Origin: Hericium rajendrae
Lineage: Eukaryota; Basidiomycota; Agaricomycetes; Russulales; Hericiaceae
Assembly: GCA_033439255.1 (NCBI GenBank)
Contig: JAVRDV010000016.1
Span: 930,001-994,000 of the forward strand
Direction: 5' to 3'
DNA: 64,000 nucleotides
The first letter of the stretch is position 1; each line of letters opens with the position of its first letter. Positions 12,901-45,950 of the stretch are shown here, piece by piece. Under the pieces are notes generated by a model. The model saw only the letters and a program-made list of their open reading frames with translations. It was not told the origin of the DNA and did no database searches. The position numbers and the translations under genes are program-made.

Positions 12901-13722
12901 TCAGCAGCGGTGTGTAGCCGAGGGCTTAGTCAGCATAGCCCATGTCCATAGCATGTTCCTGTAGCGAGCCTCATCACAGCATTCATCTGCATTCCTTCGG
13001 GGCATAGCTAGAGTCCCCTGGGCCCACTCCACCGGTCCTCGGTGGTCGTCGTTGGACTGAGCTCCATTATGTGAGCATGTAGTCATCCTTCGGGTTGATA
13101 ATAAGGGTGTGGGTGGTGATGGGGATGGTTGTCGGCTGTGATGAGGTCGTGTGATGAGGCGGCCGCGCATGGATTTGGAGGCAGCTGGTAGTGACTCAGC
13201 CTCAGATTCTGAAAGTACATCGGACACCAGCCCGGCTGATCGTCCAATATCCCCTGTGTCTCCATGAGTACTAGTGATGCGACGATTGGGGAGTAAATGC
13301 ATGGATGTGGCTGGAGTATCAGTGTCAGAGTCATCAATGTGGGGTTCCTGGGAAGTCACAGTAGAAATGGTCCCGTCTTTCTCCTTCCGGTGGCCTCTAC
13401 CAACATGGACGGTCTCTAAGACTGACCGGATATGTGACCTGCTGGTGTTGCTGGTGGTAGTCGATTCACTTGGAGACGGCGGACAAGTCGTAGCAGCCCA
13501 TGACACAACTTCTGAATTACCGATCTCTGAGTACCCATCCTCTGAACCTGATAGGATGTCATTCGTGGCAGGGGGTGAAGGGCCTCGGGAGGAAGAACTT
13601 GATGGTGAACGGAATGCTGTGAATGAATGGTTCGGGTCTTGAATAGAATGGCTGGATGGTCGAGGAGTCATCCCGGAAGAAACAGTCGTCCTGGATTCTG
13701 CGCTATCTGAATCATGGCCCAA
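6988..13722 (-). CDS. KDZ (Kyakuja-Dileera-Zisupton) transposase, split by an LTR element
   Basis: This is the transposase of a large DNA transposon. From N to C terminus: a Ser-rich acidic region (13722-13032); a CxC2-type region (about 10090-9550, VDRSGVHELGVVNCYC and HRQLLRSNLFPASFRRP); the KDZ core (MQDGNFTAQLEKMRRPDNDF near 9290; YDIACQWFVNFYSRV near 8810; HGHRQECLARFSPTFIPGAR and VDGEILETLWAPLNE near 8700); and a helical C-terminal third ending at 6988. The introns I traced in the core and C-terminal parts join in phase. The LTR element at 10134-13031 sits inside the N-terminal part. Removing it with one CCGG copy leaves the KDZ frame continuous, so the gene looked functional until that insertion. 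The Cys-rich front of the CxC2 domain is not seen. The transposon's terminal repeats were not found. The true first exon is probably missing or upstream: the reading starts at a splice acceptor next to the element at 13739. Confidence 0.85.
10134..10305 (+). repeat. Left LTR (172 bp)
   Basis: It is identical to 12860-13031. It begins TG and ends CA, with 8-9 bp inverted termini TGGAGTGGG / CCCACTCCA. Confidence 0.85.
10593..12644 (+). CDS. Cargo protein of the TRIM-like element, Gly/Glu-repeat type
   Basis: This uninterrupted frame gives 683 aa from the ATG at 10593; an in-frame start at 10413 would add 60 residues. The N-terminal ~260 residues are Ala/Pro/Thr-rich and low in complexity. Three blocks then carry the repeated pattern G-x3-G-x3-EG (QGYAAGRKEGQ near 11520; EEGLEAGMMMGRKEG near 11740; DGHAAGLKEGRHMG near 12290), each preceded by an acidic helix. 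Between them are IQTD/SQTD motifs (AIQTD, ASQTD, QVQTDE). The pattern resembles the Gly-repeat helix of Yae1-type proteins, but I cannot assign it with confidence. It may be a Gag-like packaging protein or a captured host gene. The window start contains a diverged copy, so the family is multi-copy. Confidence 0.55.
   Translation: MGKKKRATTAAWRAAAASLPLPTTTSSATPLIATVASADTLGTTATNEPSPALTRQPADSHARIACPAHPAPSTALHTTLGSPNTISAPRNAIPAPLATEHESDGSRTPATAKPREPCSVQTHPAPVTTPRTSNADTTTPHTSRATPNRTARPHTTENDPQDEFGPSRDKVRSAGDANEGGPQLVRTPASPVPHTRAATPPHVSIPPRLDARPCAPANEPKEHLGVRADNTTSARAYLGPSPVSPASHTSSTVPTDVPALAHNDVEPPTPGIEPGEPRMAAAYEPLAPEPTFIDRAQHDDIVALAIRQGYAAGRKEGQNSGFREGLAANTKAGRVHREEGPSEGTKPGSLEASPPASLAMSIDEIDADLLVRVRKEAEHGVWEEGLEAGMMMGRKEGREEGYGEGLQAGRKMGMMEGQERGFTEGKSAGVEAGRVLERVKVRRIPRTSRLIQTDPRTMHVETAIGTDATPKTERTNTAIQTDVVSPPRTVSFASQTDVVYGRIRAAVMPPSPMTSVPRPAPILLPPMPGFEPGGQHAAAMPFIENPDPALLDPIHLKEIVVTALYDGHAAGLKEGRHMGLQEGVKVGREQARTEARHIVRISCQVQTDELPTSVPVHTAILPAPFSWADDADSLPILPPPPLCSAPPRDFSALRSDLVTQPFGSIQRRVQRSRGHGIRTSPFR
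12860..13031 (+). repeat. Right LTR (172 bp)
   Basis: It is identical to 10134-10305. It is preceded by a purine tract and followed by the CCGG target duplication. Confidence 0.85.
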
Positions 13723-13922
13723 CTGTAGAGGTTACTTAAGTTACTATACCACCACTAATAGTGGTAAAGCATAGTGTCTTTATCCAGTGGGTAGTATCTT
13801 GCCTATTAAAAGTGTACAATAGTAACTTTATCAATAGTAGTATCAAAGTAACTATAGTAACTTTGTTCTATTATAAAGTAACTAAAGTAACTTTATCAAT
13901 AAATAAATAAAAATAATACTGA

Positions 13923-13997
13923 CCATAGCAGGAATTGAACCTATGACCTAATGAAAATATTTTCGAATTTCATGTCATCAACCACTACACCACAAAG
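13923..13997 (-). other. tRNA-like sequence with A-box and B-box
   Basis: On the minus strand, TGGTGTAGTGG matches the RNA polymerase III A-box pattern and GGTTCAATTCC the B-box, about 50 bp apart. The presumed acceptor-stem halves do not pair and the anticodon loop is too long, so this is not called as a working tRNA gene. It is more likely a tRNA-derived (SINE-like) piece carried by the element. Confidence 0.4.
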
Positions 13998-14029
13998 GAA
14001 TTAACATTGTTTCAACAAAGCCTTATTTG

Positions 14030-14135
14030 AGGTCACCTGGTTGAGGTTGGGATGGGTTGAGTTGGAATTGAGGTTGGGCTGGGTTGGGTTGGTTGAGGTT
14101 GGTGGTTGGGTTGGGGTTGGTAGGTTGGTAGGGAA
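14030..14135 (+). repeat. G-rich GGTTG/GGGTT minisatellite
   Basis: Irregular tandem GGTTG, GGGTT and GAGGTT units fill about 100 bp between the two tRNA-like sequences. G-runs of three to four recur, so G-quadruplex formation is possible. Confidence 0.6.
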
Positions 14136-14212
14136 CGTGTTTTTCTGTCTTGAAACTAATAAAAAGTTATATTAGATTAGATATAAAAGTAACTAAATTT
14201 ATAAAAATAACA

Positions 14213-14280
14213 TGGCCATTTAGTGTAATGGTTAAAGTTACCTTAACATAAGGTTCAAGGTTCAATCCTTGTTACACCCA
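14213..14280 (+). other. tRNA-like sequence, degenerate
   Basis: TAGTGTAATGG fits the A-box pattern. GGTTCAATCC, about 35 bp later, resembles a B-box but is one base short. It points away from the other tRNA-like copy. Acceptor-stem pairing is absent, so it is probably not a functional tRNA. Confidence 0.35.
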
Positions 14281-14429
14281 ATTTCCGAAATTTTTAATTT
14301 TAGGCTTACTAAAAAAGTTACTTTCAGCCTACTTTTCTAATAAAGTTACTATGTACTGATAAAGTTACTACCCACTAGATAAAGACACTATCTCTCTACC
14401 ATTATAGTGGCAAGATAGTAACTTATGGG

Positions 14430-15042
14430 ACCACTGCGGCTCCATCGAGCTCGACGACTTTCCCGCCGGGTGCCTTCATGCGTGCATGGTGTGGGTTCGG
14501 CAATGCATCTTACGTTTTGGTAAGTGACTCTCAAGTCGAATTAGCCGAGGCGAATATGTACTCACTAGGCCTCTGAAACCAGGTATCTTCGCCATAAATT
14601 CCAACCTTTCGAGGCCTATGCCAAATGGCAGAGTTCTCGAAGGCCAATGCTATGAAGAACATGTTAGCGTGCTTCCGTCAACGTTGTCCGTAAGTGCAGG
14701 GTGCAGGGCCATGCGAGCGCTGTACCAGAGACGGCGTCAACGGGTCTCCGTCGAGGCCCACATTCCACGCGCAGGAGCCGGGCGAAGCCCAGCGATGTCC
14801 TCGCATTTCTATGTGTCATTGCTGGTTCCCGGAGGCATTCTGGAAGCTGTGTGATGCATTCTGGTGAGTGCCTGAGCGAGACTTAGCCGAGCGAAATGGA
14901 TACTCACTGGGCCATTCGCAGGACCGATCTTCGTCACCACATTTTGCCGATTTCGAGGCCCCGCAGCGAGCGGCGAGCGTGCCCTTAGACGAACTGTTCG
15001 GAGCTGGCAGCGACGGATCTCCATCAGGAAAATGTAGAGGTG
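14430..15042 (+). repeat. Repeated exon/intron-like units, left block
   Basis: Two intron-like segments are seen, 14520-14582 (GTAAGT...CCAG) and 14864-14921 (GTGAGT...GCAG). Each has a central TTAGCCGAG and is followed by an exon-like segment containing TTCGAGGCC. The same arrangement recurs at 17751 and 17979, and the exon-like stretch GCGCAGGAGCCGGGCGAAG (near 14769) recurs near 17670. No continuous reading frame links the units, so this is probably a decayed tandem-duplicated gene or a repeat family that spread with its introns. Confidence 0.5.
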
Positions 15043-17624: not shown

Positions 17625-18084
17625 AATTCCAATTTCCCTGATGTCCGTCCACATCCATGTCCCGAGCGCAGGAGCCGGGCGAAGCCCGGCGACATCCTCG
17701 CGATCTTGCTGTTTCACGTGCGCATTGTAAGAACTGTGCAGCACATTCTGGTGAGTTATTTTCAATGCAGTTAACCGAGTACGATGACGACTGACCAGGT
17801 TCTTCGCAGCGTGAATTCTCGTCGCTGTTGTTCGAGATTTCGAGGCCCCATGGCGAGCGGCGAGCATGGCAATGGGACAGGCAATCGGAGTCAACGTCAG
17901 CGGGATCCCGCTGACGTCGAGGAGACGCGAGTGCTGGGTGCAGGCCAGCGCGATTCACGATACTTTCCTCGCGTCTTCGTGAGTCTTTCGTATCCAATTT
18001 AGCCGAGCCAATCAGGTGCTCACGAGAGCCGCAGGCATTGAATACTTTATGCTCAAAATTTCGACCTCAAGGCCCCCGCGGCGA
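17625..18084 (+). repeat. Repeated exon/intron-like units, right block
   Basis: Intron-like segments 17751-17809 (GTGAGT...CGCAG) and 17979-18033 (GTGAGT...CGCAG) match those at 14520 and 14864, including the central TTA(G/A)CCGAG. The following segments contain TTTCGAGGCCCC (near 17839) and a similar stretch near 18060. The block also holds perfect short hairpins, such as GCCGGGCGAAGCCCGGC near 17685. Confidence 0.5.
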
Positions 18085-18415
18085 CATCAGTAATTAGGCA
18101 GACGCCCTGACCGCACTGACGGTTACCATATATGGTAACTTTCAATGCAGTCAGGACGCGTCAGTGCGATTCAGTCTCCAGGCTTCATCTATGCCCAAAG
18201 CACGGTCAGGGTGAGAATTTCATGCTCAAATTCTCATCTCCAGGGCTGTCAGGCTGGCAACTCTGAGTGCATGAGTTTAGCCATAATCATAGACATCAAC
18301 TATATTTGATGCTACCGACTGTACGAGTGTTTTAACAATATATTGAGCTTAATTATTATAGCTACTAAAGCCGTCAGGGCTGTCAGGGTGTCAGGGTTCG
18401 ACCGAATTGCTGATG
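18085..18415 (+). repeat. Left 331 bp inverted repeat
   Basis: It is the inverted copy of 19532-19862 and begins CATCAGTAATTAGG. Confidence 0.8.
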
Positions 18416-19531
18416 GAGCGGCAGGGCGAACTCAACGTCAGCGGGTTTCCGTTCACGTTGAGGCGGGAGCACTGGGCGCAGCCCAGCGCAACTGCTGCTC
18501 GCTTCCTCGCTATCTACGCCTTGTCGCACGCGAACTTGGCATCGGCTTCCCGTGTAACGTCGAGCGGGCGCAACCCAGCGCGACTTCCTTCTGCACGCCA
18601 CTACATGTGTTGCGGCCAGCCACCGCCTTGTGGCGCTCGCCTATGATGCACGCAGGGCGTCATCGTCAAGTACGTCGTGCTGGGCATGAGGCAGATCTAG
18701 ACACGGGTGAGTGCATCATGTCAGATATCTTATCAGCATACTCACCTGGCGGTTTTTGTGTTCCAGACATTGCAAGGGCGTCATCGTCAAGTTCGATGAT
18801 GCACGCGCCCGATGTCATGGTGGAGTCGCCTGCGCCCTGTGATATCGCCTACGCTTCTCGACTGACGCGGCGCTGGCCAATGACACGCGAAGGGCATCAT
18901 TGTCAAGTACGTCGAGTATGCATGAGAAACTAATGATATCAGCTGTCTACGTCTACAGTACTACATTGTATAATTGCATGAGATGCTGAGGTATCTGACT
19001 TGTGTGGTATAGTATTATATCCTACGAGTGCTTTGCATGTAAAGATAAGGAAAAGTCATCCTAAGTCTGTCCGACAACAGGGTTGGCTGATAACTGTGTA
19101 GCTATAGGTGCACGGTGGCAGAGGTGTTAGATGTTGACATCGACATACTGTGCGCAGCATGAGTAGTGGCCGAGATGCTTGAGCTAGGAATGGGAAACCG
19201 TGCTTTGACTGATCCTGGAGACATTTGCAACAGCTGTGCCATGGTCCATTGCCTTGGTCGGAATGGAGACTTTGGTGTCGACACCAAGTCCTGGTCGAGC
19301 TCGAGATGCTCGCTAGAGCTCAGTTGCATCCCGACAGCTTGATCAGCTAGATCGTCGCACGGCAGTCCAGATGCAAAGCCAGTGGATGCCCCATCATCAT
19401 AGGGCAGTCCGAGTTCGAGGCCAGCGGATACCGGCAGAGCAGACAAATGCTCGTCTTCATACAAAACAACGTCCGGTGCGCGTCTCACAGGTACGCTGCA
19501 GGTGTCGTGCTTGCCGCAGAGCATATCTCGG

Positions 19532-19862
19532 CATCAGCAATTCGGTCGAACCCTGACACCCTGACAGCCCTGACGGCTTTAGTAGCTATAATAATTAAGC
19601 TCAATATATTGTTAAAACACTCGTACAGTCGGTAGCATCAAATATAGTTGATGTCTATGATTATGGCTAAACTCATGCACTCAGAGTTGCCAGCCTGACA
19701 GCCCTGGAGATGAGAATTTGAGCATGAAATTCTCACCCTGACTGTGCTTTGGGCATAGATGAAGCCTGGAGACTGAATCGCACTGACGCGTCCTGACTGC
19801 ATTGAAAGTTACCATATATGGTAACCGTCAGTGCGGTCAGGGCGTCTGCCTAATTACTGATG
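19532..19862 (-). repeat. Right 331 bp inverted repeat
   Basis: It is the inverted copy of 18085-18415, with one mismatch found by eye near 19747. Confidence 0.8.
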
Positions 19863-19902
19863 GGGGCGACGATAGCTCCACTTTGAAGCGCCGAGGTCAG
19901 AA

Positions 19903-22110
19903 TCACTTCAGCTCGGCGGTTGAGCGACTGACAGCACGAAGGAGGACGTCGCCCGGAGCTCCCGTCGACCTCAGCGGGCCTCCGCTAACGTCAACTGCGT
20001 ATACCGGCTTGATGGACACGCTCGCCTCCTGATCCCAAGAATGGGGCAAAAATCGCCTCTTCGAACAGCTTGGTGAGTTCCAAGCTCGCTCGACTAATAT
20101 CGCTTGAAAGTGCTCACACGAAGGCGTCATACAGCCTCGAACGCAGCTCGTCAGGACGTGAGGAGTCGCCGGGCTGCGCCCGGCGGGCGGGGCAGAGAGG
20201 GTAGTCTTCGAGACTTCCCGAGCTGTGAGATGGGCGTGTCGAGGACTGCGACTCGCTATGTATGGAAGTTCGGCGTCTTCACGAGCGGGACTGCTCGGCT
20301 GCGGCTGCGACACGGGCGTGGGCAGCGCGGGGTCGACCCATTCTTCGTCGTCGTCGAGCTCCTCGTTGCCCCTCGCCCTCTGCGAAGTCCTCCGTGCCCT
20401 TAGGGACAGCGCGCTCGCTCTCGAATGTCGAGCGCATGCCCGGCGTGATGGGCCCCACGAGGCCCTCCGAGTCTTCCGTGTCCACGCTCTTCGCGCCGTC
20501 CCGGGCACTGCTCGCGTCGATGTCCGGAGAAGGCGATGCAGAAGGCGAGCGGTCGCGGCCCTCGCTTGCGTCGAAGAAGTCGCCCCGCATCCTCGTCATC
20601 CTCCGGCATATCCATGTCCATGTCGGGCTCTGACATCGACTCGAGCCCCATGTTGTCATCGGAATCTGATGGCCACGATGGAGGCTCATCTCGTATCGAG
20701 AATATCATGTTTTGGTTCTTCGATTGCTGTGGTCATGGGGCATCATCAGCGATCACAAGAGGCCAGGACGTGCACGAATACATACATCGGCCACCCTCCA
20801 GCACAAGTCCTTCCAGTCCGCCTCGTCCTTGCATAGAAATCCTATCAACATACTCGGGTCCAAACCGCTGAGAGGCATGCTGCGCACAGGGTCGCAATGG
20901 AATGTTTGTGGCTCGTCACTGCGGTAGGCATTGACATGATGTTCTGGCGGTGGATCAAGCCCATGGCCGCTACACATCTCTGAAGACGAGAAGTCGGTCA
21001 CAGAGTGATTGCCTACCGAAACGGAGCCTGCTGCCGACGGGACATTAGACGATTACCAGCACGTATGAGCATTCGAGTTTGGGTGCGAATTGGTCGAGGA
21101 AGGTGACGATGACGAAAGCTGCTGCGCAAGGGGAGATGGGGACAACAGGGCATGGTATGAGAAGGTCGACGAAGCCATGCGCATGGAAGATGGGGAGGTA
21201 GGAGAGCGGTGGTGGTTAGATGGCGGCGTGTGCATTTGGCGCAGTCGTGGGTGTTCTCTGTCAGACTCGGGTGTTGTCTGACGTTCATGCCCATCGTGAG
21301 AGCCCTCCAGGACGGTATCTGTACCGAAAAATTCCTTACCCAGGTCCTTTCCCGTAAGCGCCATGCCATGCACGCTAAACGGCGAGTAAGGCGAAAGAGA
21401 ATCAAAGAATCACATCAGTATTTGTACATATGTTGCATAGTCAGATGTGTACAGCGGCTGCAGTGGCCGACGCCAATCTGTGTAGTACATCGGATCAGAG
21501 ATAAGCCAGCAGACCAGACGATATGGGTTCTGAAAGCATACCGCGGCCAAGATGGAGATGCAATAACGCATTCGCGAGAAGAGACTGCCCTTCCGTAGCA
21601 TGCAGCCCCAACCCGCATCACTCGTCCAACCCTTCTCTCCGGTACCGGGCCAGTTCCATCCGCAGCTTTGCAGGCTGCTGCTGACCGCGTTCATCCATCC
21701 TTGTGTTGCTCTTGTCCGCCATGCTGTAGTCTTCCGAGATATCTGCATCTTGCATCAGGGGCTGCAGTGAGGAGGACTGGCGACGCTCTTCCCTCACGCC
21801 TGAAAGCTTGCTGCCTCGCCGCGCCCAGGGGGCGATTGATATGATTGTGGTTCTTCTGCGTCAGTGTCCTCTGCGAAGATGAGGATGATCCCAACACTGA
21901 CTCTGGGAGTGGATAAGAGATGGAGGAAGACGAGAAAATGGAGACGCTGCTGCTGCTGGTGGGATCAATCATGGATTTCGAGCTGTCGCGGGTCTGCTTA
22001 GAATTCAGGAATTGGGTAGCTTGGAGGCATGCGACGGTGATGAGGCCGAAGGAGAGTGGCGGGCCTTGCTGGACATGAGAAAAGGTGAGGAGCGGGGAGA
22101 GATAGAGCAA
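19903..22110 (-). pseudogene. atg4: Broken atg4-like (peptidase C54) gene copy
   Basis: Pieces of the autophagy cysteine protease Atg4, which processes Atg8, lie in order on the minus strand. The catalytic-Cys motif GWTSDAGWGCMLR is near 21620-21580; DWRRPLQPLYTSDYATYVQI near 21475-21415; PFSVHGMALTGKDLGKEF near 21380-21325; MPLSGLDPSMLIGFLCKDEA near 20880-20820; and EEWVDPALPTP near 20340-20310. The reading changes frame just after the catalytic-Cys motif (one base short) and again in the acidic C-terminal region, and a stop replaces the usual Trp after YVQI. The segment that should carry the catalytic Asp and His is largely missing. It is therefore a pseudogene. Since atg4 is normally conserved, an intact copy presumably exists elsewhere. 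Mobile elements next to it suggest how it was moved or damaged. Confidence 0.75.
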
Positions 22111-22629
22111 GCAGCATCGTCGTCATTGTCATTGTCATCGTTGAGGAGGAACTGATGAGAACGAGAGCCGCTCGCGGCGGCAGGCTGCAGCATTTCACGC
22201 AGGCATGTGATGAGCTTGTCTATCCAACCTGATGCGCCCGTTTCTGCTGGGCATTGTGCTCGTACTAGTCTCAGATTTTGCACCAGTGAGGTCCTTGTTG
22301 CAGGCACCGCACCTAGGTTTTTGACGCAGCGCAGTGTCACATATACTTTGTAAGTGATAAAACAATCCAGCGAGCCATATCTTACCCCAGATTTGTTGCT
22401 TCATCACTGCCAATACGTACGTCTTCACTACTCATTCAACTCGCCCCTTCCTTCAAGACAGGATCGGGGTGTCAGCATCCTTGTCAGAGGTAAGTAGGGG
22501 TTCAGCTACATTCTTCGCTCAGGGCCTAACGTTCTCAGCAGATAACAATGCTAAATGGATCAATTTGGATACAGCTTGGGTAGGTTTAGGTACATTTTCC
22601 TATGAATTATAGTAGATCAATAATGGACG

Positions 22630-23400
22630 AATATTACAGAATAGGGTAGAGATGCGACTGCATTCTTCTTTCACCAGGACACAATACTATGTGATGTTGT
22701 TGTTGCTCCTGCAATGCTGGCGCACCTCAAGTGTGAGCTGCAGCGACGGGCAGGGACGATCTCCAAATGCACTGTTCTAGCAGCAGATGTCACTGCCTCA
22801 GTCAATGCGGATGATGTGCTTGCTGTACCAGGACGGTGGTCATCATGCTCACCACACTGCGTATACATGCTGTTTGCAGGTGCGGCAGCGCATGCGGTGA
22901 TATGGGTGGTGCTGCCAGCGCTATGCATCCTGAAGGCGAAGCTTGACGGTGGGATTTTTGCAGTGCTGGGATCAGTGTAGGAGCTGCCGGCACTGTGGAA
23001 CATGGTGAATGCAGCTCTCAGCTACACACGAGCAGAATTCTTCGGCTTCTTCATGGCACATGGGGGGCGATACCAGCTTGAGCTCGGAGACTTCTGGTCG
23101 ATGACTGAGGAGCACAGCGTCATGAGCACACACCCGCAGCAGGTGGTTAGTAGACTCGCGGTCGCTGACATAGGGTGCGGCGGGGTATCCGAACCTGGGG
23201 GACTTGGATCTGATCTGCGGCACAGACGGCGAGTGGTATTGGGAGCAGACAAACTGGATTCCGCCAGATGTGCTGCTGCTGTGCCACCCCATGCCGGAGA
23301 TGAAGACAGAGCGAGCCATGGACATGCAGATTACAGGCGCACTCGAGAGAGAATTGGCAGGGCACAATCGACTGTGGATTCCACCTTTTCTCTGTTTGTT
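22630..23400 (+). pseudogene. Decayed coding remnant of unknown family
   Basis: Coding-like plus-strand sequence is visible in pieces (near 23005, AEFFGFFMAHGGRYQLELG; near 23225, GEWYWEQTNWIPP then HPMPEMKTERAMDMQ). An extra G near 23180 shifts the frame between the two pieces, and a stop precedes the first. No domain is recognised. It could be a decayed neighbour or former 5' part of the gene starting at 23487. Confidence 0.4.
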
Positions 23401-23486
23401 CAGTGGCTCACATTATTTGGTCACACCAAATTGCGACTCTCATTCTTGCTGAGTCCCGATTTACAGAAATTTTGCTTCGTCCATTG

Positions 23487-25633
23487 ATGTCTCACAGCCG
23501 TGCATTCCGTAGCCGTGTAACATACAGTCCGCGGCATCAGTCTAATCGATTAGCGGCTCAGAATGCTGGCCAGGGCGTTGTCAGTGCAGGAACAGCAGTG
23601 ACAGGTGCACCAAGTGACAACCAAGGTACGTTAGGTATAGACTTCGTCTCTCCGTCATCCCTCATGCATTTCAATGACTATAACAGAAGCATTGTCTGGT
23701 CGTTCTGATGGACCAAATACCCTAGAAGTCGAACAGCCACTGTCGAGTGGCGATAACTTGACAACATCCCAAGCTCCCCTGTCGTCTCTAGCTCGACATG
23801 TAAGCGACGATACCGTGGCGCCCGTCGGTATGCAGACATCAGTTGTTCAAGACAATGACACGAGCACAAGTGACGATTATGAAGAATCCATCAAGGCACT
23901 CCTCGGTGGTACGACCATGACGTTTCAACGACCAGAGGAAGATCTGCCATTGGCTACTATGGAGGTATGTCTGATGTTGGACTGTAGCGAAGTAATACTG
24001 ATGATATGGACTGTTCGTTTACAGAATACCACAGGAATGGCAGCTCCTGGATCTCAGAATGTGCCCAGCTCTGTTCCCAACCCAATCACAGCGACGTCTG
24101 AAATAGCGACGCCTGAGGAAGCCACAATCGCCATGGAGGCAACGGCAAGTGCAGCTGTATCTACAACCACTGCACTTGGAACAACGGCAGATGACACTTC
24201 CAGTTCTGAGCAAAGCACAAGGCAGGCCCAGCTGGCCACCGAATTGTCACAACGGCAGGAGGACGCTCCGCAACATGTCTCGGGACAGGTGGTTAGGACC
24301 GAGCTAGCATCGTCTGGTAGGTAACTTATTTTGATGCCGGTTCCGACTGTGGCTAACATGACAAATAGATGGATTCTTGGTGCCCGATCCTGTAGAACGT
24401 CATGATGGTGGTAGTTCCACTACCGAATTAGCAGAGTTTAATCAGCTATGGTCATTCAACTCAACTGTTCCTCGGGCTACTTTGGTTTTTCTTGGACTGA
24501 GATCTAGGACGTCTCGGAAAAATCTTGTGGAGGTCATCGCATTGCCCGAAACACCGTCGTTGTTCGACATCCTCATCACTCTGACAGATACCCAGTCCGA
24601 TACATGTACTTCAAATATCCTACATCATCTCTCGCTTCTCATTGATCCATCTTATCGGGTGGCTACATTGCAGATACCTATTCACGTCGAAGATGAGGGA
24701 TGGGACTCGTATACCAATGGCTTTGAGGATCATGGCAGCGCTATGGCCATGCTGAACGGTCGTCGAATGCCTCCTATGCTCGTTCTAGCTCGATCATCCA
24801 TGCAGCATGACACCGTTCTGGCTGCGCTGGATAGTCGAGTGACAGCAGATCTTCCAATGTATGTCTTGTATATCTATCAGGATGCCATTGCAGAGGTGTG
24901 TCACAATCATATCTGGTTTAATATGTTAATTATATTAACATATGTTCTCTCGGTAAACAGACATCTTCCAGTACAGACGCTTTCTCACACATGTCTATGT
25001 CCGCAACCGCAGTAGTACCACCTTTGTTAGGTGGTGCATATATCGGGCCTTCGATCGGTAACCAAGTTCACAATCATCTTACACCCGAAGGATACCTGGA
25101 CTCTCGCTTCGCTAATATCAAGAGCGACACACTGGAGGTGATCTCTCATGGTACATATGGCACGGCATATAAGCATATGTTTGCCGTACGTGGTGTCATG
25201 GCCATCTATGACCAACTTGGAATAGGCCTCAATGTCGCTCCTCGTCCTGTAACTGTTCAGGTGCCTAACCACAGTTCAATCGTCATTTCTCCAGAGTGCA
25301 TTATCAACTGGATGACATATCAGGCTCGCACATTTTCCAATCATGCTGGTGCCTGGACAAAGGCATGTCATATACACAGCACATTGGCCTGGCGTCAGAG
25401 TCTAGACGAAGGGGACCAGCAATTCTTCAACGTGTTGGATGTCATGTTGTATCAGCCTCGCATTGATATTGCTCGATCACACACATCTTGGTCTATTGCT
25501 GAGACTGTGGCCTTACAATACAAGATGGACCCCTTTCACAGAAAGCTTCAAAGCATAACTGGTATGTTCCTTATATTAGCCATACAACATACTCTAATCA
25601 GACAATGTCAGCTTAACAGTACTTTATGATTGA
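23487..25633 (+). CDS. Unknown 622-aa protein upstream of the 170-bp array
   Basis: I do not recognise this gene. Six exons join in phase: 23487-23625, 23687-23964, 24025-24316, 24369-24895, 24961-25561 and 25602-25633, giving 622 aa. Introns are 40-65 bp GT-AG. Residues 1-235 are Ser/Thr/Gln-rich and probably disordered. Residues about 240-610 look globular, with two segments: one contains FLVPDPVE, FLGLRSR and LDSRVTADLPMYVLYIYQD; the other contains LTPEGYLDSRF and GTYGTAYKHMFAVRGVMAIY. No membrane segment or known catalytic motif is seen. The start at 23487 is the first ATG of the frame consistent with the first intron. It converges with the 945-aa gene across the AT-rich array. Phase-coherent splicing argues that it is intact. 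Confidence 0.6.
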
Positions 25634-25859
25634 ACTTCAACAGTTTTCAATGGTTTTATACTTTACAAATGTCTATATGTGACTGATCATGCACAGTCAC
25701 TTGAATTTAACTTCAACAGTTTACAATACTCTTTTTATACTTGACAACTGTTTTTATCATATCTATTATGCACAGTCATAGTATGGTGTTTTTAAATATC
25801 CTCTTAGCAAACTATAAATGGTTGGGCTAATGAGAGTAGTAACATATGTGATCCATTTA

Positions 25860-27900
25860 CTCAAAGACCAGATTTCACATATATACAGCCTTGGTTTTTT
25901 TAAAAAGCCAATGGATGACATCCTGTAGCCATCTGGAAAGATTTGCAGAATATATTTTGGCTGCAATAGGTCCACCAAGTGATGGCCAAAAGCCAAGTTG
26001 CCAACCCAATCTTTGGGTCCTATCGGAAGATTTTACTGAAAGAAAATCAACTGTGTGAGCTTGAATACTAAATCTTAGCATATTCTGTTAATATTTCAGA
26101 ACTCTATAATTGTATCTTTATTTGCTATCCCATATGATGAGATATGAGAGTACAACAGCGAGAATTGATCATCACACATGACATTTCACATATGTAGAGA
26201 TTTTTGTGCAAACCAATGTGCTTTGTGAGCTCAGCTACTGAATTCTAGCAAATATTGTTTCAAATACCAAAACTCTAAAACTGTATCTTTGCATATAGCT
26301 TTTTCCTGGCAGAGTAAAAGTAGCGCATATATTTGATCATGACATTTCTCTGATCTGAAGATTTTATATAGAGTGAATGCACTATTTGAGCTTATGTACT
26401 GAATCTCAGTTCAATTGGTTGAGATTTCAGAACTCTGTAATTGAATCTTTGAATGGATGACTTCTCATGGCCGTTTTTGAGTGATGGCTAAAGGTTAATG
26501 AAGTTCTTTGTTTTCTGCTCTTATTTTGTTTTGGACATCTGGACTTCTGTTTAGACACAGTGATTGTGTATAGGCTGTAACAGCCCTAGCACTAAATTCC
26601 ACTTTTCCTATTAAAGGGTAGCTACAAGTATCTGCATATCAATGAGATTTTGCAAGAAGTCATTCAATGTGACAGTTATTCACATAAAAGCAGAGGAGAT
26701 AACTCACACCCTGGGACAAAACATTTGGCACACATGGAGATTTTAATGAAAAGAAACATATTATGTAAGCTGAGATGCTTGATTTGAAAGAATTTTACTT
26801 GGAATTCAAAACTCTCAAACTGTATCTTGGATTATAGATATTGGCAACTAAGTATATATAACTCTATCTGTAGACTTTTTTGTGCTGATTGTGTGAAAGC
26901 TCATACCCATCTGCACTGTGCCTTGTCCAGAAACCCCTTTGCATGAAAAAACTACAGAGAAGATATGTATTTACAGAAACTCCCTTGCATGAAAGGACTA
27001 CAGAAAAGATATGTATTTAACTCTGTAATCATCTCTTTTTTATGAGATATTTATGGAAAGTCATAAGAGTATATGGGTGATAAGTATATTTAGACATAAG
27101 ATTTCACATATGTACAGATTTTACTCAAAAGGAATATACTGTCCCAGCTTACAGTCACAATTTTAGCAGATTTTGCTTAGAATTCAGAACTCTATAATTG
27201 TATCTTTGCATATAGGAGCTAGGAATTTGCAAGTGTGCATGGGAGGAGTGGAGACAATTTATGTGCTCAAATATGATGTTTCTTACATTTGAATATTTTA
27301 TCACAAGGAGATACATTGTCTGAAGTCAGAATCTCAAGTTTGGCTCATGATACCTCTGTAATTGACTCAGACAATTTGCATGTAGCTGTTTGCAAAGGGA
27401 TATAAGTGTAAGATAGATGACTTACATATTGAGATGGAACATATTGAGAATATAAAGATTTTTTTACAATCCAATGTATATTGCAAGGCTATATAGTCAA
27501 TATGTACAGATGCCATTGAAATTCCAGAAGTTTGTAATTATATTGTTTGTAGCTATTTGTCAGAAGTTGTAAGAGCTCTTATATACAGAGGGTGATTCAT
27601 ATATCCAAACATGGCATTTCACACATCTACAAATTTTAATCAAAAGAGATATAGTATTCAAACTAAGATTCATCATTTCAGCAAATTCTACTTAAATTTC
27701 AGAACTCTGGAATTGTATCTTTATTTGCAGCACTTCGAAAACAAGTATGAGAAGATGGTACATGATTCACATCTTCAAACATGATATTACACACCTTTCA
27801 AGATTTTTCTGCAAGCCAATAGATTATCTGAACTTATATCTTGAATGGTAGCAAAATCTGTTGAGATTGCAGAACTCTGTAATTGTATTACCATCTTGTA
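25860..27900. repeat. Degenerate AT-rich tandem array, period about 170 bp
   Basis: One word, AGAACTCTGTAATTGTATC in its best form, recurs near 26098, 26269, 26428, 26807, 27018, 27185, 27351, 27523, 27699 and 27869. Gaps are about 160-175 bp, with one double and one wider step. A second word, CATTTCACATATGTAGAG, recurs at a matching spacing (near 26177, 26336, 26719, 27096, 27270, 27438, 27602, 27781). A third, around TGAGCT...TGAAT...TAGCA, lies between them. Units differ by perhaps 25-40%. The whole 25634-28303 stretch is AT-rich and has no supported gene. The period is close to a nucleosome repeat. Confidence 0.7.
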
Positions 27901-28303
27901 GAAGAGCACAAGAGTATATAGAGGTGTAGCCATAAGGAGTATGATATGAATCACAAGAACAAAATGTATTTTAAGATTGATTGTAGCCAGATAAGGCACC
28001 AAGGAGCTGCATATGGATCCAACAATCAAATAGTGTTGCTGAGTGATGTACATGTGGAAGTGGCTCAAGCAAGGCATTGCGAAGCCATGAATTGATGAAC
28101 ACATCACAAGTGTAGTCACATGTGTGAAAATATATGGCTGGAGGCATGTCATCCTGAACAAGAGAATCATGAGTACAAATGCTTGTTAATAAGTCAAATA
28201 TTTATACCTTTCTGCCAACCTTGTTTAGCACTGAGTTGGGAACATGTGGGCCGGGATGATGAAGGCGCATCTGTCAGATGGGGTTTTATCACTTTATGTG
28301 AAT

Positions 28304-31300
28304 TTATAATCCAAAGATAGTACTGACACTGAGCCTCCAATCAGGAATGCTAGGGCGGAGATCTGAATGAGTCATAGCAACAAGCAGCATCTGCGCTCGA
28401 AGCATAGAATTATTCTTTGCCACATCAATCTCCTTTGCAGTGAGATAGGAACCAATCAGATTTGGATGATTGGGGTGACCTTTACCTGTCACATAACGAA
28501 AGAGACGAGTCTTAAATAAGTCACGAAGTGTAGAAAGATCTGCATCGGCAGACTGATCAGATGTACGGAACTTGAGAGCAGCAATGACTTGGTCGAAGTG
28601 AGAGAGGTCACGGGTATAGAGGACTTGCATGAAAGTGCGAAGATCGTCAGGACTTTCGGAAGGAAATGTCTGGCAACAATGAATAGTCAATATATATATA
28701 AAAATAATAGCTTCCAGTACACACACCTGACACAAAGTAATGTCAGGGCCCAGCTTGATATTGAAACCATCCTTGAAGGCCACAAAATCTGACTGACTCC
28801 AGACGTCGGCATGCCCGAGAAGCACACATTCTACGATCGCTCGAGTATAGGTCTCATGATCGTCAGGTGTTCGAGGATAAGGAAGTTCAGTTGGCTAGAG
28901 ATAACAGATTAGCATAATGACATGTGCCAATAGACAGACCAATGTACCACCACACCAAGTGCCTCAACAATCAGCTGATAGACCTTGTCCGTCGAGGATT
29001 TTGGAAGTGGAGAGTCGTAACTCAGACGGAACCATGGCTTCAGCTTCTGGGCAGCGTCGAAGTCTAAGATGTTGATAAAGCTTTCCGTCCACGAAACATC
29101 ATGCTGTTGGCCAAGGGTGGCGACAATAGCAGCAAAGACGCAGAAAGGAGAGATAGGACAAGGGCCGACACCAGTGACCACGAGAGATAGCGCACAGACA
29201 GCACCCACGGCACGGAAATATACCTCTCTCTCGGAGATGCGTCTTGACATAGGGAGAATGATGGGCGTTTTGTACTGCGGTGTACGTGGTTGCCAGTACT
29301 TGATATCATCTGTCATCAAAAGCACGAGGCGGCGGTAGACAGCACGCTCGGGCCCTGCACCAACGCCCTCACCTCTATTTTATTGGAAACAAGATGAGCA
29401 CCACAATTCATGTAACGCAGAGAAAGCACATACACAAAGATGGTACGCTCCGGGTAAAGAAATGCTGCAACATCTTCTGGTACTCTGGTCGCAACACCGG
29501 CAGGAGCCTCAAAAGACTGCATGGGACCCGACGAGCTCAGATACTTGAGGAGATCAAAGAGCGTCTGTGCAACGTCTGTTTCGGACTCGGCATCACCACC
29601 AATGATAGAAGCGGCACGTCGACCAGGGGCCGGAGAAAGACAGTGCATGACCCTTTCTTGCCAGTCCTGGACCATCTTGAGCATGTCAGGCGTCGGAAGA
29701 AATATGGTAGGGAGGATGGGCAAATCCTATATTTAATTTAACATCAGAAAATATCGTAGACATCACGATATTGGCGGATGACGAACCAAGGACATCGAGT
29801 CATGGTTGACTGATGCTGAAGCGATGAGATTGTCACTGTCACCACTCTAAGTGCGCAGATGAGTGGGTAAACAGAATCATATTGCGACAACAACTTACCC
29901 CTATCGGCGGAGGCGACACATCTTGAATGTTAGGATGTATCTGCAAACGCGGTCGAGAAGAAGGTGGTATATCTGTCACAGGCTATTATGACTGTAAGGT
30001 CATCTTCGATGATGCAAAAACTGTATTAGACTCACAGTCTCGTCGAAGTCATCTCTGCGGCGAACTATGCCATGATGGCGGGATGCAGCCGGAGCTTCAG
30101 TAGGAGCGGAAGGAGGATTGGCAGGAGCAACCGTAGTCCCAGTAGGCAGAATAGTCGACGGTGGTAGCGCTTGTTGCTCGGTGTGTGCAACAATAGGAGA
30201 GGGTGGGGCAGATGGGGGGAAAGGACATCCGAATGGACCTTGAATGCAGCGAGGTTTATCTTCAGGTTCACTGTTCGCTGCGAAAGCATAGAACACATGC
30301 AATGCGTAGCATGGATGGGGCAACTCGAGCGTCGGAGACCACTCGTCCTGCGAAAAGAACGATGATATGGCAGATTGGATATTTTGCCAACGTGGAGCTG
30401 CACGAAACAAGAAGTCTTAAACGTGCGAGGAATAACAAGAAGCATAGGAGAAGATATACCTATCATAAATAGAGCGACATTTCCATCCAGTGGATTGATA
30501 AGCTTCTTTGGTCCGCATTCCTTCAAGAGCTGACCAAGTGTGAACGTCGACTCTGCACTGAACTTGGACGCAGCAGAGACTGCAGAGATGGAGGGCCTTG
30601 ACCGATTGACTTTTGGGAGAAGAAGCTCCCAGTTGAGCATGTGAAAGGGGGCAAGCTGGGACGACGTATTTTGATTCGGAGGAGGGGCGCCGAGTTTGAG
30701 ACGATGGTCAGAACAGTGAGCGATAACAGCGGCGTCAAGGGTGTTCCAGACCTGGCCTTCCTTTGGCAAGTCACAGGTAAATACAAGATGCTGATGTCGC
30801 AGATGAGTGAGAATCCCAGCAAACTCAGTACCAGGCGCCCAGATGTACGATGGCGATGGATGCCCAGGGTGTTCATGCGTGCTACCTTTTAGCTAGTAAA
30901 GAGAGAATTAGAGGTAATTAGACAAATACACATATGGGGACGACACATAGTAGCTTAATAACTCACAACGTAAGGCAGGATCATGACCATGACAGAGCTA
31001 AACTCGGAGGGAGGTGAGAACGGCACCTGGCATATAAGTAGACTTGATGAGCCGAATTCAGCATGGGCAAGAAGAAACATAGAGCGTACCTGAGAAGTCG
31101 AACGTGATGCGGGATTGGAACCAGCACCTCGATGACCGGGACGGTGCTGAGGCAGATTGCGAAGTATGCTAGTCGCTCGAGAAGCCTGATGATTGCTACG
31201 TGTCGGCGCATTCAAGCCTTGGAAGCTGGCAATGGGACGGGCAGTGTCGGTCTCAAACCGCGGAATAGTCAGTGGAGCAGAACGGATGGCAGCAGCCGGT

Positions 31301-31844
31301 GCTATTGAGATCGAGCGTGCATCGATGCTGTGAGTTCGTGAGCTTCAGGGACAAGATTGAGTATTTAAATGCTTACTCAGTACCGAAATGAACGTGCTGT
31401 CCCCAAGGTGCAGAACAGACACAAATCATCTCCGGAGTCCAGGGCTGAGGAAGAAACTGCAAGGCTTCAGTCGGAGGGAGCGTGCACATATAGCGGCATG
31501 AGCGTACCGAGAAGAAGCCGCCGCACAACTTGATGGCACATCCGCCTTTAACAGATGCTACATCTTCGATGTTGGAAGGACGACGACTTGTGTGACTGAT
31601 CCAAGGGTGCTGGCATGAGCGATAAGCCTGGTGCGCATCGGATGGATGCTAGAGCGCAGCATAGCGGCACCATGATGAGCACATAGCGGGGTAGATAAAT
31701 GTTATAGTCATTGCTCACCAGTGCGGTATGAGACGTTACAGGACTGATGGTAACCCATGCCGCACAACCACATCCAAGGACACACTTGTCACGCTGTGGA
31801 AGGACAACGGGGAGGTCGGAAAGGCCTGATGATCGGGAGTCCAT
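28304..31844 (-). CDS. Unknown 945-aa, 13-exon protein; Cys-rich N-terminus, weakly HECT-like C-terminus
   Basis: Thirteen exons join in phase: 31844-31719, 31648-31508, 31456-31377, 31327-31090, 31026-30967, 30892-30460, 30397-30036, 29982-29899, 29846-29787, 29726-29434, 29374-28948, 28894-28727 and 28669-28304. Residues 20-115 are rich in Cys and His (DKCVLGCGCAAW, GGCAIKLCGGFFS, CVCSAPWGQHVHFG), perhaps a metal-binding fold. A Ser/Arg linker follows, then a globular segment (VMVMILPYV, STHEHPGHPSPSYIW, LTHLRHQHLVFTCDLP). A Pro-rich stretch lies near residues 510-560. The last ~250 residues (GPCPISPFCVFAAI, FVAFKDGFNIKLG, ENA-free end LRPSIPDW) resemble degenerate HECT-like C-termini of some Agaricomycete families, but I see no catalytic Cys, so this is tentative. 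The gene appears unbroken. Confidence 0.6.
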
Positions 31845-32638
31845 CTTTCGACTTGTCAATAAGAAAGGGTCATACGGTGGCTCTCGAGAGGTAGAAATTA
31901 GACGAACTCAGGATGCTTTGGAAGGCGCAGTGTGAACGCAACTGACGGTCGCTCGAGATCACAAATTGGAAAGGCCTGTCGAGAGAATGGTTATCGAGAG
32001 GACGAGGGAACGCACGGCAAGACATGGAGCAGAATGAAAAATTGTCAAATTACGGACCACCCATGGCCAGCGATGTCCATTGATGCTGGCAAACGGACCC
32101 TGGATACGCAAGATGCAAACATTAGTAGCATAGCGGTCAAAATAGACATGTACTTCGGACAGTAGGAAATGCGCAGTAATCCCGCATCGCTTACCATGAG
32201 CCTGCATTGATTTGCATGGAGGAGAATTAGTTCGATGGGCAGGGCTTATAACTGATGAGAATGAAGGCTCACTACATTCCAGGAAGCGAATGAAGGAGAC
32301 TTCGGGACATCGATGACAATTGATACACATGAGACCAAATAAAATATATTAATATCCATGATAATTGATGCACATCCCTGGGACGCCGTGCAGGTCAAGG
32401 ATCACGGAATATCAAGAGTGCACATCAGAGGAAACCGTTGCGATGCGATGTCTATGAGTGGGCATGGAGAATTACAAATGGAAAGCGATGTGATGGAGAA
32501 CGCGCAGGCTTTTTGTCCGATAACGGCCGTCATACGTAACCGCTGCTGCACAACGCCCGACCAGTTCCTCCAAAAGGCTCTCCGCCCGAGCGCCGCTCTC
32601 ACTGCCTCGCCTCCCCCTTCCCTCGTTTATTTCCCATC
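31845..32638. other. Divergent intergenic region
   Basis: This ~790 bp separates the starts of the 945-aa gene (minus) and the MFS transporter (plus). A CT-rich tract (32600-32633) lies just before the transporter start. No gene or repeat is supported. Confidence 0.45.
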
Positions 32639-35397
32639 ATGCCTCCGTCGTCTTCCATACCAAATCCTAGACGCTCTTATAACGAAGTCTATACCCCGCA
32701 GTCTCCCGACAAACTAGACATATCCATCCTTCCCGACCCGTTTCTCGCTGGCCCCTTCTCTGCCTCTCCTTCCCGTTCGAGGCCTCCGCAACCCAAGACC
32801 AAGCCAAGGGCTAGACGATACGACACGAAAGCTGCTCAGCGCGGTCGAGCTATGGAGCAGGATTTCGATGACACGAACGTCTCGCAGGTTCGTTCGAGCC
32901 AACCGCCTGGCGAAACGGAGCCGTTGTTACCCCGCACTGGTGAGATGTCCGAGAGAGCAAGGAAACCATTCTATCGTCCGCGGCCTATGTGGTGAGTCTT
33001 CTCTACATTGTCTCTTCATGATGCCAGCTCTGCTAGCTGCCCGATCGTACGATTTAGTGGGCACGAGACCTCAAATAGTCCACTGATCTCATACAGCGCT
33101 CATACCTTAGTATATTTCTGCGCGAGTCTCGCATAGAGGTCATCCATACCGATTCAACCTTGCTATAGCCTTGGAAGATTTCATCGTGTGCGGAAATATA
33201 CACCACGCACTCGGATGTTCTTCCATTTTCCTTATCATCTATCTCCAGCCGCGTCGAATGCAACGTGCTGACTTACGCCTGATACAATAGGATCGTTCCC
33301 TTTGCTATCATAGCAGCCGTTTCTGTAAGTCCTTTCAAGGATTGAGCATATTTATCGGAGCTTATACTTCTTTCAGCGGGGCATGACCTTAGCACCTCGC
33401 GTCGAAGTCTTTACCCAACTTGCCTGCAATGCTCTGCACCACCCGTACAACCATACCTCCGGCTCAGATCAGAATATCTTGGGCCTTTCCTTGTCCTCTG
33501 TTTCTGCCTTCTTCCTTCCTTCCGTGCCTCAACATACAGAAATCACTTCTTTGCCGATACACTTTCCGCGAGACTCATTAGAGACTGTCGATCTAGACGA
33601 CAAGACTCCCAGCGAGAGTGGCAGTGACGACGATGACACTGACGATCCGCGTCGGCTTCCCTCGCAATCCTGCTTATCTGACCCCGCAGTCCAGGCTGGT
33701 GCTGCCCGATTGCAGACAATCATGACCACGCTCATGGGTATCCTTAGCGCTCTCACAACGGGCTGGTGGGGGCACCTTGGCGAACGTCACGGTCGAGTGA
33801 AAATCCTTGCGGCATCCACCCTTGGACTGCTCCTCACGTATGTCCGATTATCCTCGTGTCCGGTCATCCCTCTGAATCACCATCGATTTCTTTCAGCGAC
33901 CTCGCATTCATCCTCGTCTCCACGCCCTCTTCGCCCTTTTCTCACCACGGCCACATCCTCATCCTCCTCTCGCCCCTCACAGAAGGCCTTCTGGGTGGTT
34001 GGGCTACCCTGCAGGCGACCACCTCCGCCTATGTCTCCGACTGCACCTCCGATGGCTCGCGCTCTCACATCTTCGCGCGCTTCACCGGCGTTTTCTACCT
34101 CGGCTTCTCGCTCGGCCCCACGCTCGGCGCCTTCCTCATCAGACACCCCGCGCCGTGGTTCGAGAGCGACGCACCCCGCGCACTGGCGGGCGTGACGCAT
34201 CCGCCCACGGTGACCACGGTGTTCTGGGCGGCGATCCTGTGCAGCGCGATCAACTTGTTCTTGACGGTGTTTGTGCTCCCGGAGTCGCTCGATAAGGCAC
34301 GTCGCAAGGCTGCGTTGAAGGCAGAGGCGGATGCTGCGGCGGGTGTGCAGCCGGTTGTGAAGGCGGCGAAGCTCCCGCAGGGCGGTGTCGTGGGCCTGGT
34401 GAAGCGTGCTGTGGGCCCGCTGGCAATCTTCGCGCCGAAGCGGCGGATTGTGGGTGCTGTGGATGGATTCGGCGGGAGGAAGCAGAGGGACTGGAGTTTG
34501 ACTTGGTTGGCGTTGGCACTCTTTGGGTATCTGCTGTCCATGGTGCGTGGTTTTGGTGATTCATTCTATCTTTCAAAAGTGGCTGATAGAGGGATGGGCA
34601 CTTCAAGGGCATATTCCAGATCAAGTATCTGTATGCTGAGCACGTTTACGGTTGGGGTGCCGAACAGTTGAGCTATTACATCTCGTTCGTCGGTGGTGCT
34701 CGTGCTGTTCATTTGCTGTTTATCATGCCCTGTAAGCCTTCCTGACTCTCCTTATTACGAGCTGTCCTAATCTCTCGAACCAGTCATCATCTCCATGTTC
34801 AAACCCACCACTCCCGTCCCCGCCACTTCCACGCCCACCCCAGGAGCCCTGCACGACTCCATCTCCTTCGACCTCGCCCTCTCACGCATCTCGCTCCTCC
34901 TCGACATCACCTCGCACTCCCTCGTCGCGCTCCTCGGCGGCCAGAGCTCCTCCCTCGCTTTCTCGGGCCTGACCGTGCTCAGCTCCTTCGCGAGCGGCGT
35001 GCACCCCGCGGTGCAGAGCCTCGCCATCTGCATCATGCAGCGCAACGGGCACACCGCGGGGCTCGGCCCGCTCTTCGGCGCGCTGAGCTTCCTGCAGGCC
35101 GTCGGGCAGATGATCCTCGGCCCGCTCGTGTTTGGCCTCGTGTACTCGAGCACCGTCGCGCGCTTCCCCGGCGCGATCTTCGTGCTCGCAGCGGGCCTTG
35201 CGGCCGCATCGCTCGCGTTCCTGCTTCTTGTCCGTGCGGAGCCCGCGCCGAAGGAGGCTTCTTCGGGTGGCGCGGCGCGGAAGGGCAAGAGCAAGCTGCG
35301 GCGCAGCGAGGAGCATGAGCCGGCGCGTGGACGCTCGCGGACGAAGAAGCCCGTCGGCGAGGCGAGCAGCTCGCGGCTCGTCGCGCCCGACGTCTGA
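32639..35397 (+). CDS. MFS transporter (HIAT1/tetracycline-efflux-like)
   Basis: Six exons join in phase: 32639-32991, 33291-33324, 33377-33837, 33897-34542, 34608-34731 and 34784-35397, giving 743 aa. A ~115-residue polar cytosolic N-terminus precedes the first membrane helix (IVPFAIIAAVS). Motif A of the major facilitator superfamily is present (GWWGHLGERHGRVKIL, about residue 255), followed by helices including LLSPLTEGLLGGWATLQA and FTGVFYLGFSLGPTLGAFLI. A long charged loop separates the two six-helix halves. The C-terminal half (LSYYISFVGGARAVHLLFI, VLSSFASGVHPAVQSLAI) ends in a basic Arg/Lys-rich tail. Family members move small molecules by proton coupling; the substrate here is unknown. 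The layout of a long hydrophilic N-terminus and mid-loop is typical of basidiomycete members. Confidence 0.85.
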
Positions 35398-45253: not shown

Positions 45254-45298
45254 TTTGCAGAGATGCAGTTAGTCCACACACGTCACTCGCAGAACTCA

Positions 45299-45306
45299 CT
45301 TTATAG
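45299..45306 (-). promoter_or_regulatory. TATA-like box of the endoglucanase gene
   Basis: CTATAAAG on the minus strand lies about 46 bp upstream of the start codon. That is plausible with a short leader. Confidence 0.35.
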
Positions 45307-45415
45307 CTCATACAAGAGTAGTGGTAATTCACCGAAATCCGACGCATGGCCCTGCGCAATTGTCACATGCTGTCGTTTTGGCGAGGAGCCCAAGCCGAAG
45401 GGACACGGTTCGATG

Positions 45416-45425
45416 TGTCCCCGCC
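45416..45425 (-). promoter_or_regulatory. Single Cre1-type site upstream of the endoglucanase
   Basis: GGCGGGGAC on the minus strand contains GCGGGG (SYGGRG), about 165 bp upstream of the start. A single site is weak evidence for repression. Confidence 0.25.
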
Positions 45426-45950
45426 TTCACCGCTAAAACTCGGTCGATCCGAGACTGTCGACTTGAGCGGCACTCTCGTGGTTTCTCCGTCTCAGCATGG
45501 ACAGCTACTGGGCATGCAACTGGAGAAGGTGCTTGGCAGCATCACATGCGTCAAACCCATGCTAAAAATGTCGTGGCTGCAATACGTGCAGCACTGTGAT
45601 GGGCTGAGCTCTCGGACATAGAGAACAGTGTTCCGGCTTGTGGGTGCTTCTTTCGTGGCTGATTGTTGGTATTAGAGAAAATGTCACCGAGAAAGATCCA
45701 TGGTGAGTATAATTTCATCATAATCAAAGCTGTTTTCCCGAACTGATTGAGATTCATCCGGCACTAGATCCACAGCTCAGTGAACAGTCAACTCACATAA
45801 GCAAATATGAATATTAGTTAGGGACGCGAAGCTCTTTACAAACCTAAGATACAGGTCGCCAATATCAGAATAGGACGAAGCAAGATCGTCGCAATATCAT
45901 CGGACTCACATACTCTATCATACAACAGCAAAGGCATCTCATAGCCAGCT

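Follow-up and report, generated by a model that had tools for sequence, protein, structure and literature searches.

The two convergent genes and the AT-rich repeat array between them, which lie in the 64,000-nucleotide stretch of the mushroom Hericium rajendrae analysed here (the window, on contig C16), are very probably internal cargo of a large DNA transposon of the IS3EU/GingerRoot kind, hereafter E. A full copy of E occupies C11:1701127-1736540 (35414 bp, or 35.4 kb; 26.7 kb without an inserted retroelement of 8.7 kb) and is flanked by a 6-bp target duplication, the junctions reading GATCGG/TATGACGG...CCATCATA/GATCGG. On C16 the element lies in two halves, and the six bases GTTACG stand both beside its left end (window 32534) and beside its right end (C16:873974), 88.6 kb apart. 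On C11, E begins with TATGA and finishes with TCATA, and the two C16 halves show the same at their outer ends. With the ends taken as given, the chance of two matched 6-bp duplications is about (1/4096) squared; the end base was set by eye jointly with the duplication, with a freedom of about one base. The termini start with TATGAYGG and form 24-bp imperfect terminal inverted repeats (TIRs) that match at 18/24 positions, a match equalled by one of 200000 random position pairs within E. That the TIR is short and imperfect counts against the transposon reading. E is known here from two insertions, and we found no report of it within the open-access literature.

The first-pass annotation, which dealt with window 23487-31844, had described two genes converging on an array of ~170-bp units, and this description holds, as two open multi-exon genes and about nine diverged units were found. 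It had also raised the prospect of a large uncharacterised transposon. An element bounded by inverted repeats and target duplications does exist, but that stretch contains neither a terminus nor a transposase. The nearest terminus lies at 32511-32534, and the other terminus and the transposase are 88 kb away; a split element read by its half is misleading.

A counterpart of the C16 insertion site is found on C5, where both flanks of E stand almost side by side: the 95.5% match to the left flank runs to C5:3280697, and the match to the right flank starts at 3280701. From 3280698 to 3282197, C5 matches C16:873975-875465 at 94% over 1.5 kb (87.4% over the first 333 aligned bases). Two distinct C16 pieces thus meet one and the same C5 site with their outer ends, and on C11 these pieces are found together. 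The right-hand piece, C16:861577-873974, is 97.5-98.1% identical to E, apart from the C11 retroelement insert, and C16:872001-873975 is 99.5% identical to C11:1734567-1736541, beyond the second array locus. At C5:3280687-3280720 the sequence is GGTACCGTTCCGG where GGTTACGG is predicted; it is thus a few bases off the predicted empty site (GCGGTACCGTTCCGGTCC versus GCG-GTTACG-GTCC), and either a footprint left by excision or plain polymorphism might account for the mismatch. Since both outer ends carry GTTACG and the C5 site is without E, the element inserted whole on C16 and was split later, apparently by inversion.

The two broken ends of the C16 element are adjoined by copies of a ~725-bp dispersed repeat. 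These inverted copies are a plausible substrate for an inversion that would have split E; were the segment between them flipped back, the halves of E would be close neighbours and the C5 flanks would lie to either side. The left half stops at about 12.73 kb of E and the right half starts at E 14824, and the ~2.1 kb in between (12.73-14.82 kb) was not found beside the right half. The inversion on C16 might also be an artefact of assembling a dikaryotic genome, and the transposon claim is independent of its reconstruction. A reciprocal inversion at the C1-like sequence beyond the break was considered and rejected, as C16:857001-863000 has no match to C1:5044301-5045500. No match to the window was obtained with four pieces taken from C5 at 3331-3347 kb.

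The features of the window and the order of parts along E are collected in Table 1, in which X and Y denote stretches of open frames rather than modelled genes; neither gave a Pfam match at an E-value of 0.01 or better. The insert in the C11 copy (8.67 kb, E 22069-30736) carries a 1000-aa reverse-transcriptase/integrase-like ORF, Ty3-like by eye; the C16 copy lacks this insert and has ~450 other bases in its place. The degenerate ATG4 copy matches PF03416 at an E-value of 3.9e-5 with 23.7 bits, just below the curated 25, and its counterpart at C1:5231641-5234759 has a 491-aa frame with the same motif, intact by eye. The piece in E would be a host gene fragment duplicated into the element.

Table 1. 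Features of the window (window positions) and layout of E (kb of E in C11 orientation, E 1 = C11:1701126).
Feature	Location	Strand	Description
Dispersed repeat	13720..14445	+	~725 bp; 94.8% inverted copy at C16:860368-861086 beside the E right half
Break inside E	19467..19475	.	C11 homology ends; truncated copy of C1:5042540-5044628 starts
MITE-like insert	19532..19862	.	331 bp, in C16 E, absent from C11; 99.7% inverted copy at 18085-18415, others in the genome
E left half	19863..32534	-	inverse to C11 copy; 98.7% identity; further 65 bp at 19467-19531
ATG4 (peptidase C54) degenerate copy	20293..22151	-	84-86% identical in pieces to C1:5231641-5234759
Gene 1	23487..25629	+	five exons, up to 634 aa; own model
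MITE-like repeat pieces	25898..26668	+	25898-25996 and 26532-26668; match a dispersed repeat of ~417 bp, by eye MITE-like, whose ends are inverted
Array 1	26019..27901	+	about nine diverged ~170-bp units, 33% GC
Gene 2	27971..31844	-	14 exons, 1036 aa; N-terminus rich in Cys, C-terminal half resembling HECT by eye only
TIR of E, left end	32511..32534	-	24 bp, TATGACGG...; 18/24 against the other E end
Target site duplication GTTACG	32535..32540	-	6 bp; same six bases after the other E end, C16:873975
Insertion-site flank	32539..34192	+	95.5% to C5:3279037-3280697 (minus); beginning of a gene that by eye resembles MFS transporters
E: left TIR			first in the layout
E: gene 2	~0.7-4.5 kb	+	
E: array 1	~4.6-6.5 kb		
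E: gene 1	~7.0-9.0 kb	-	
E: ATG4 relic	~10.4-12.2 kb	+	followed by an uncharacterised stretch
E: gene X	about 17.3-18.8 kb	+	open frames
E: gene X, subsequent ORF	19.2-19.5 kb		
E: array 2	19.7-20.6 kb		
E: gene Y	21.5-32.1 kb	-	open frames, both sides of the C11 retroelement
E: array 3	32.5-33.0 kb		
E: transposase	33.0-34.6 kb	-	followed by the right TIR

The transposase of E is of the rve type. Its two exons match PF24764 (rva_4) at E-values of 6.9e-31 and 3.1e-19, over the cut-off, and cover positions 1-100 and 95-187 of 194; PF00665 (rve) gave an E-value of 1.2e-4 with 22.7 bits, below the cut-off of 32.6. Both pieces are open in both copies of E, at 96-100% identity. Relatives of this transposase occur at at least nine further loci of the genome (28 of the 32 rows among the matches listed), or ten if two C6 stretches 7 kb apart are counted separately. 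The only relative that was read, over 7.5 kb on C3, has no TATGAYGG ends and no other gene of E, and none of the inverted pairs there (25 of 28 among the matches listed) has E-like terminal repeats. Other members of the transposase family are therefore, on this one locus, not shown to be E-like elements, and, because the C3 locus is without any other E gene, genes 1 and 2 cannot be taken as regular components of the family.

By published description, TA..TA termini are found in all IS3EU elements and 6-bp duplications in most of them; GingerRoot elements likewise duplicate 6 bp and mostly have TA..TA ends (PMC10045372). E shares with them the TA..TA termini, the 6-bp duplications and an rve-related DDD/E transposase, and, like the fungal IS3EU/GingerRoot members described, it has extra genes (PMC10045372, PMC12730594). 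E thus fits IS3EU/GingerRoot by its ends, duplications and rve transposase, an assignment made on these features. In rusts, TET+ IS3EU families are reported to have TIRs of more than 30 bp ending TAYGG..CCRTA, and genes for the transposase and an alpha-kinase (PMC12730594), whereas E has a 24-bp imperfect TIR, a TATGAYGG start, ~170-bp arrays and a length of 26.7 kb even with the retroelement left out. No alpha-kinase or TET/JBP match was found by Pfam in the 19 proteins or frames of E that were scanned. We do not place E in the rust TET+ subset, as it has the general features of IS3EU/GingerRoot and not the rust-specific ones. IS3EU sequences have already been reported from the mushroom genus Ganoderma (PMC8955403); IS3EU in a mushroom is not new, and E differs by its size, cargo and arrays.

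The models of genes 1 and 2 were made by eye and by script from the genomic sequence. The exons of gene 1 are 23487-23625, 23687-23964, 24025-24316, 24369-24895 and 24961-25560, the last possibly running to a stop at 25629, in which case the protein has 634 aa (622 aa in the earlier annotation). The 3' end is uncertain owing to a 4-bp deletion at 25599 in the C11 copy, and each of the four introns has GT-AG borders on C16 and C11 alike. A Pfam search with the whole protein gave no match and no known domain. Its C-terminal 376 aa had no NCBIfam or PDB match and, beyond the two copies of E, no match at an E-value of 0.001. Genes 1 and 2 were found in E, and there is, besides, a relative of gene 2 on C2. 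In viral contigs, a pattern search with one exon per gene gave five and three matches, none of which was confirmed.

For gene 2, we obtained 14 exons and 1036 aa, against the 13 exons and 945 aa given earlier, with all 13 introns GT-AG in both copies. Its homologue at C2:4143-4150 kb (4143056-4150274) aligns piecewise, starting at the N-terminal Cys motif and reaching the final residues, and is ~25-35% identical, depending on the piece and the program. The N-terminal motif LP+RD+C..CGC matches at an E-value of 0.001, the middle at 0.01 and the C-terminal half at 6e-23; the last exon has a collinear counterpart with the same end position, at an E-value of 0.15 taken alone, and a Cys near the C-terminus is common to both proteins. 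Since the homologue aligns end to end in pieces, the 14-exon model is supported. The C2 homologue is stretched over ~7 kb, with a gap of ~3.5 kb after the first matching piece, and an insertion may interrupt it. In the 30 kb read around it, there is no match to gene 1, the array, the transposase, X or Y.

By eye, gene 2 resembles the HECT ubiquitin ligases (PF00632) in the order of the motifs GEGVGAG...R, F..GF and a C-terminal HTC/ATC, an order which we take to be HECT-like. Gene 2 had no Pfam match at an E-value of 10 and no PDB match, and hhalign gave an E-value of 0.11 and a probability of 0.5%, with a single 41-column stretch in register and no scores from shuffled controls. The five HECT genes of the same genome have best exons of 78-321 bits, whereas gene 2 is without a PF00632 match, and neither the copies of E nor the C2 homologue are among the 13 rows of a genome-wide PF00632 search. 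An AlphaFold2 model of exon 10 alone was useless (pLDDT 38.7). Pfam, PDB and hhalign did not prove gene 2 to be a HECT ubiquitin ligase, and the likeness of its C-terminal half to HECT is one seen by eye.

Array 1 stands in a stretch of 31-36% GC (25.5-28.0 kb), compared with 52% window-wide. Its units align over 129-150 bp, eight of them at 67-77% identity to the reference unit. Seven of the nine, the reference included, score at least 106; the two weakest score 84 and 78, at the level of the best score from 100 shuffled sequences (79.5). Lags of 164-173 score 24-38, against a shuffled maximum of 22 at any lag (100 shuffles), and Tandem Repeats Finder reported only one 2-copy 46-bp repeat in the region. 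E holds three such arrays, in three intergenic spaces. Arrays 2 and 3 run opposite to array 1, and units of this kind are found at C11:1720.8-1734.1 kb and C16:866.6-871.5 kb as well. The copy of the ~417-bp MITE-like repeat in array 1 is old and heavily AT-shifted, with array units between its halves. The ~417-bp repeat itself, with ends GGRTGACTTCCCGYAG, is present at many places in the genome. Most likely, the ~170-bp arrays are old, AT-decayed spacer repeats.

Between window 19863-32535 and the inverse C11 copy, identity is 98.7% over 12673 bp, with 161 substitutions and one 4-bp indel. Transitions make up 144 of the 161, and 83 of these lie before G (CpG/TpG context), a pattern reported for basidiomycete transposons (PMC4352252) and for transposons of Ganoderma sinense (PMC4457147). 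It had been proposed that selection keeps both genes intact. Nonsynonymous to synonymous differences (N:S) between the copies are 16:11 in gene 1 and 10:10 in gene 2, against a context-aware neutral N share of 0.64-0.65 (P 0.37 and 0.13), and 0.57-0.74 new stops are expected in gene 1 and 0.88-1.14 in gene 2. With the copies 1.3% apart, at most about 1.1 stops expected per gene and N:S near neutral, the proposal is not borne out; because so few stops are expected, a young copy might in any case retain both genes intact. Gene 2 has 20 substitutions versus ~41-49 expected from unit-wide rates, and its introns are low too (6/763). Since the introns share it, we read this deficit as regional, although constraint could explain it.

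Other readings of the locus have to be set against a transposon. A host segment of 12.7 kb copied between C11 and C16 by recombination, without transposition, would account for the 98.7% identity at two places, for a host gene relic (ATG4) within the segment and for an inner edge at window 19470 without repeat or duplication. It is nevertheless very improbable in view of the inverted termini and the matching 6-bp duplications at the outer edges of both loci, the C5 site without an insert and the remainder of E on C16, whose end shows that duplication again. Barring assembly errors, segmental duplication by itself does not account for the C5 flank, for a second GTTACG or for the right half of E. 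The 12.7-kb unit as an element in itself was likewise rejected, as there is no terminal repeat or duplication of its own at the inner edge, which is a later break. With its large size (35 kb), rve integrase and 6-bp duplication, E also recalls the virus-like, self-synthesising Polintons/Mavericks (PMC6431247, PMC10045372). We consider this reading very improbable, since among the 19 proteins or frames scanned there was no Pfam match to PolB, a protease of that kind, a packaging ATPase or a capsid protein, the TIR has only 24 bp, and TA..TA ends are given for IS3EU/GingerRoot (PMC10045372).

The first-pass annotation had further raised a self-maintaining element or a recombination or boundary locus as possibilities. 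Genes 1 and 2 and the array would then form a functional unit in which one of the proteins binds the array, and this could hold inside a transposon too. Convergent open genes surround the array in both copies, and the other half of E has a similar arrangement of gene X (+), array and gene Y (-). A further array, the third, is next to the transposase gene, and the ORF just before array 2 encodes an AT-hook-like GKPGRPRKK (by eye). Against these stand the C2 homologue of gene 2, only distantly similar and alone in the 30 kb read, the 67-77% likeness of units that share their space with a decayed dispersed repeat, and the near-neutral N:S between copies. We therefore regard a self-maintaining gene pair as unlikely, and treat genes and array as parts of E. 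The transposase would cut at the TATGA ends and join E to staggered cuts 6 bp apart, and gene 2, gene 1, X and Y would be carried along, probably as accessory genes.

The transposon explains the presence of otherwise unknown intact genes amid wrecked surroundings. Giant cargo-carrying fungal transposons are best known from ascomycetes (Starships), and E is a mushroom case of 27-35 kb. As a giant cargo-carrying fungal transposon, it resembles the Starships of Pezizomycotina, but these are classed by a tyrosine recombinase (PMC12134995, PMC12289983), whereas E has an rve-type transposase, TIRs and a basidiomycete host; no tyrosine recombinase was matched by Pfam in the 19 proteins or frames scanned. 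E offers a defined case that can be tested: its transposase is of the rve type, the target duplications match at each of its two loci, and a counterpart of one site lacks the element. More speculatively, and with considerable doubt on our part, mushrooms might carry giant IS3EU-type cargo-collecting transposons that are Starship-like with an unrelated enzyme and polymorphic between the nuclei of a dikaryon, with the arrays between their gene pairs serving as binding or chromatin sites. Their cargo would then comprise convergent gene pairs of no known kind, a possible ubiquitin-ligase-like protein and pieces of host genes.

The genome analysed has 46767965 bases in 19 contigs, and H. rajendrae NPCB A08 is described as a dikaryon with 3.61% heterozygosity and an assembly of 46.77 Mbp in fifteen pseudochromosomes and four contigs (PMC10608310). 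C16 is probably an unplaced contig of the second nucleus. Its end was rejected as a subtelomere, with no TTAGGG/CCCTAA in the last 3072 bases. Window 44000-49500 is 100% identical (rounded) to C5:3263706-3269206 over 5.5 kb, 10 kb from the 95.5% stretch; such juxtaposition is a sign of haplotype switching or of duplicated assembly in a dikaryotic genome. Elsewhere in the window, 9000-13720 holds a repeat in two adjoining pieces (1135 and 688 bp) that is found at 18 other places at 92-100%. It is interrupted by a ~2.9-kb element with identical 174-bp ends (10134-10307 and 12860-13033) and a 99% copy at C12:1040694-1043598. At 15022-17644, a 2.6-kb repeat is inserted in the C1-like sequence; C5 has one full-length copy of it at 99% and C9 one at 98-99% that is split into two pieces, and further copies are 77-82% identical.
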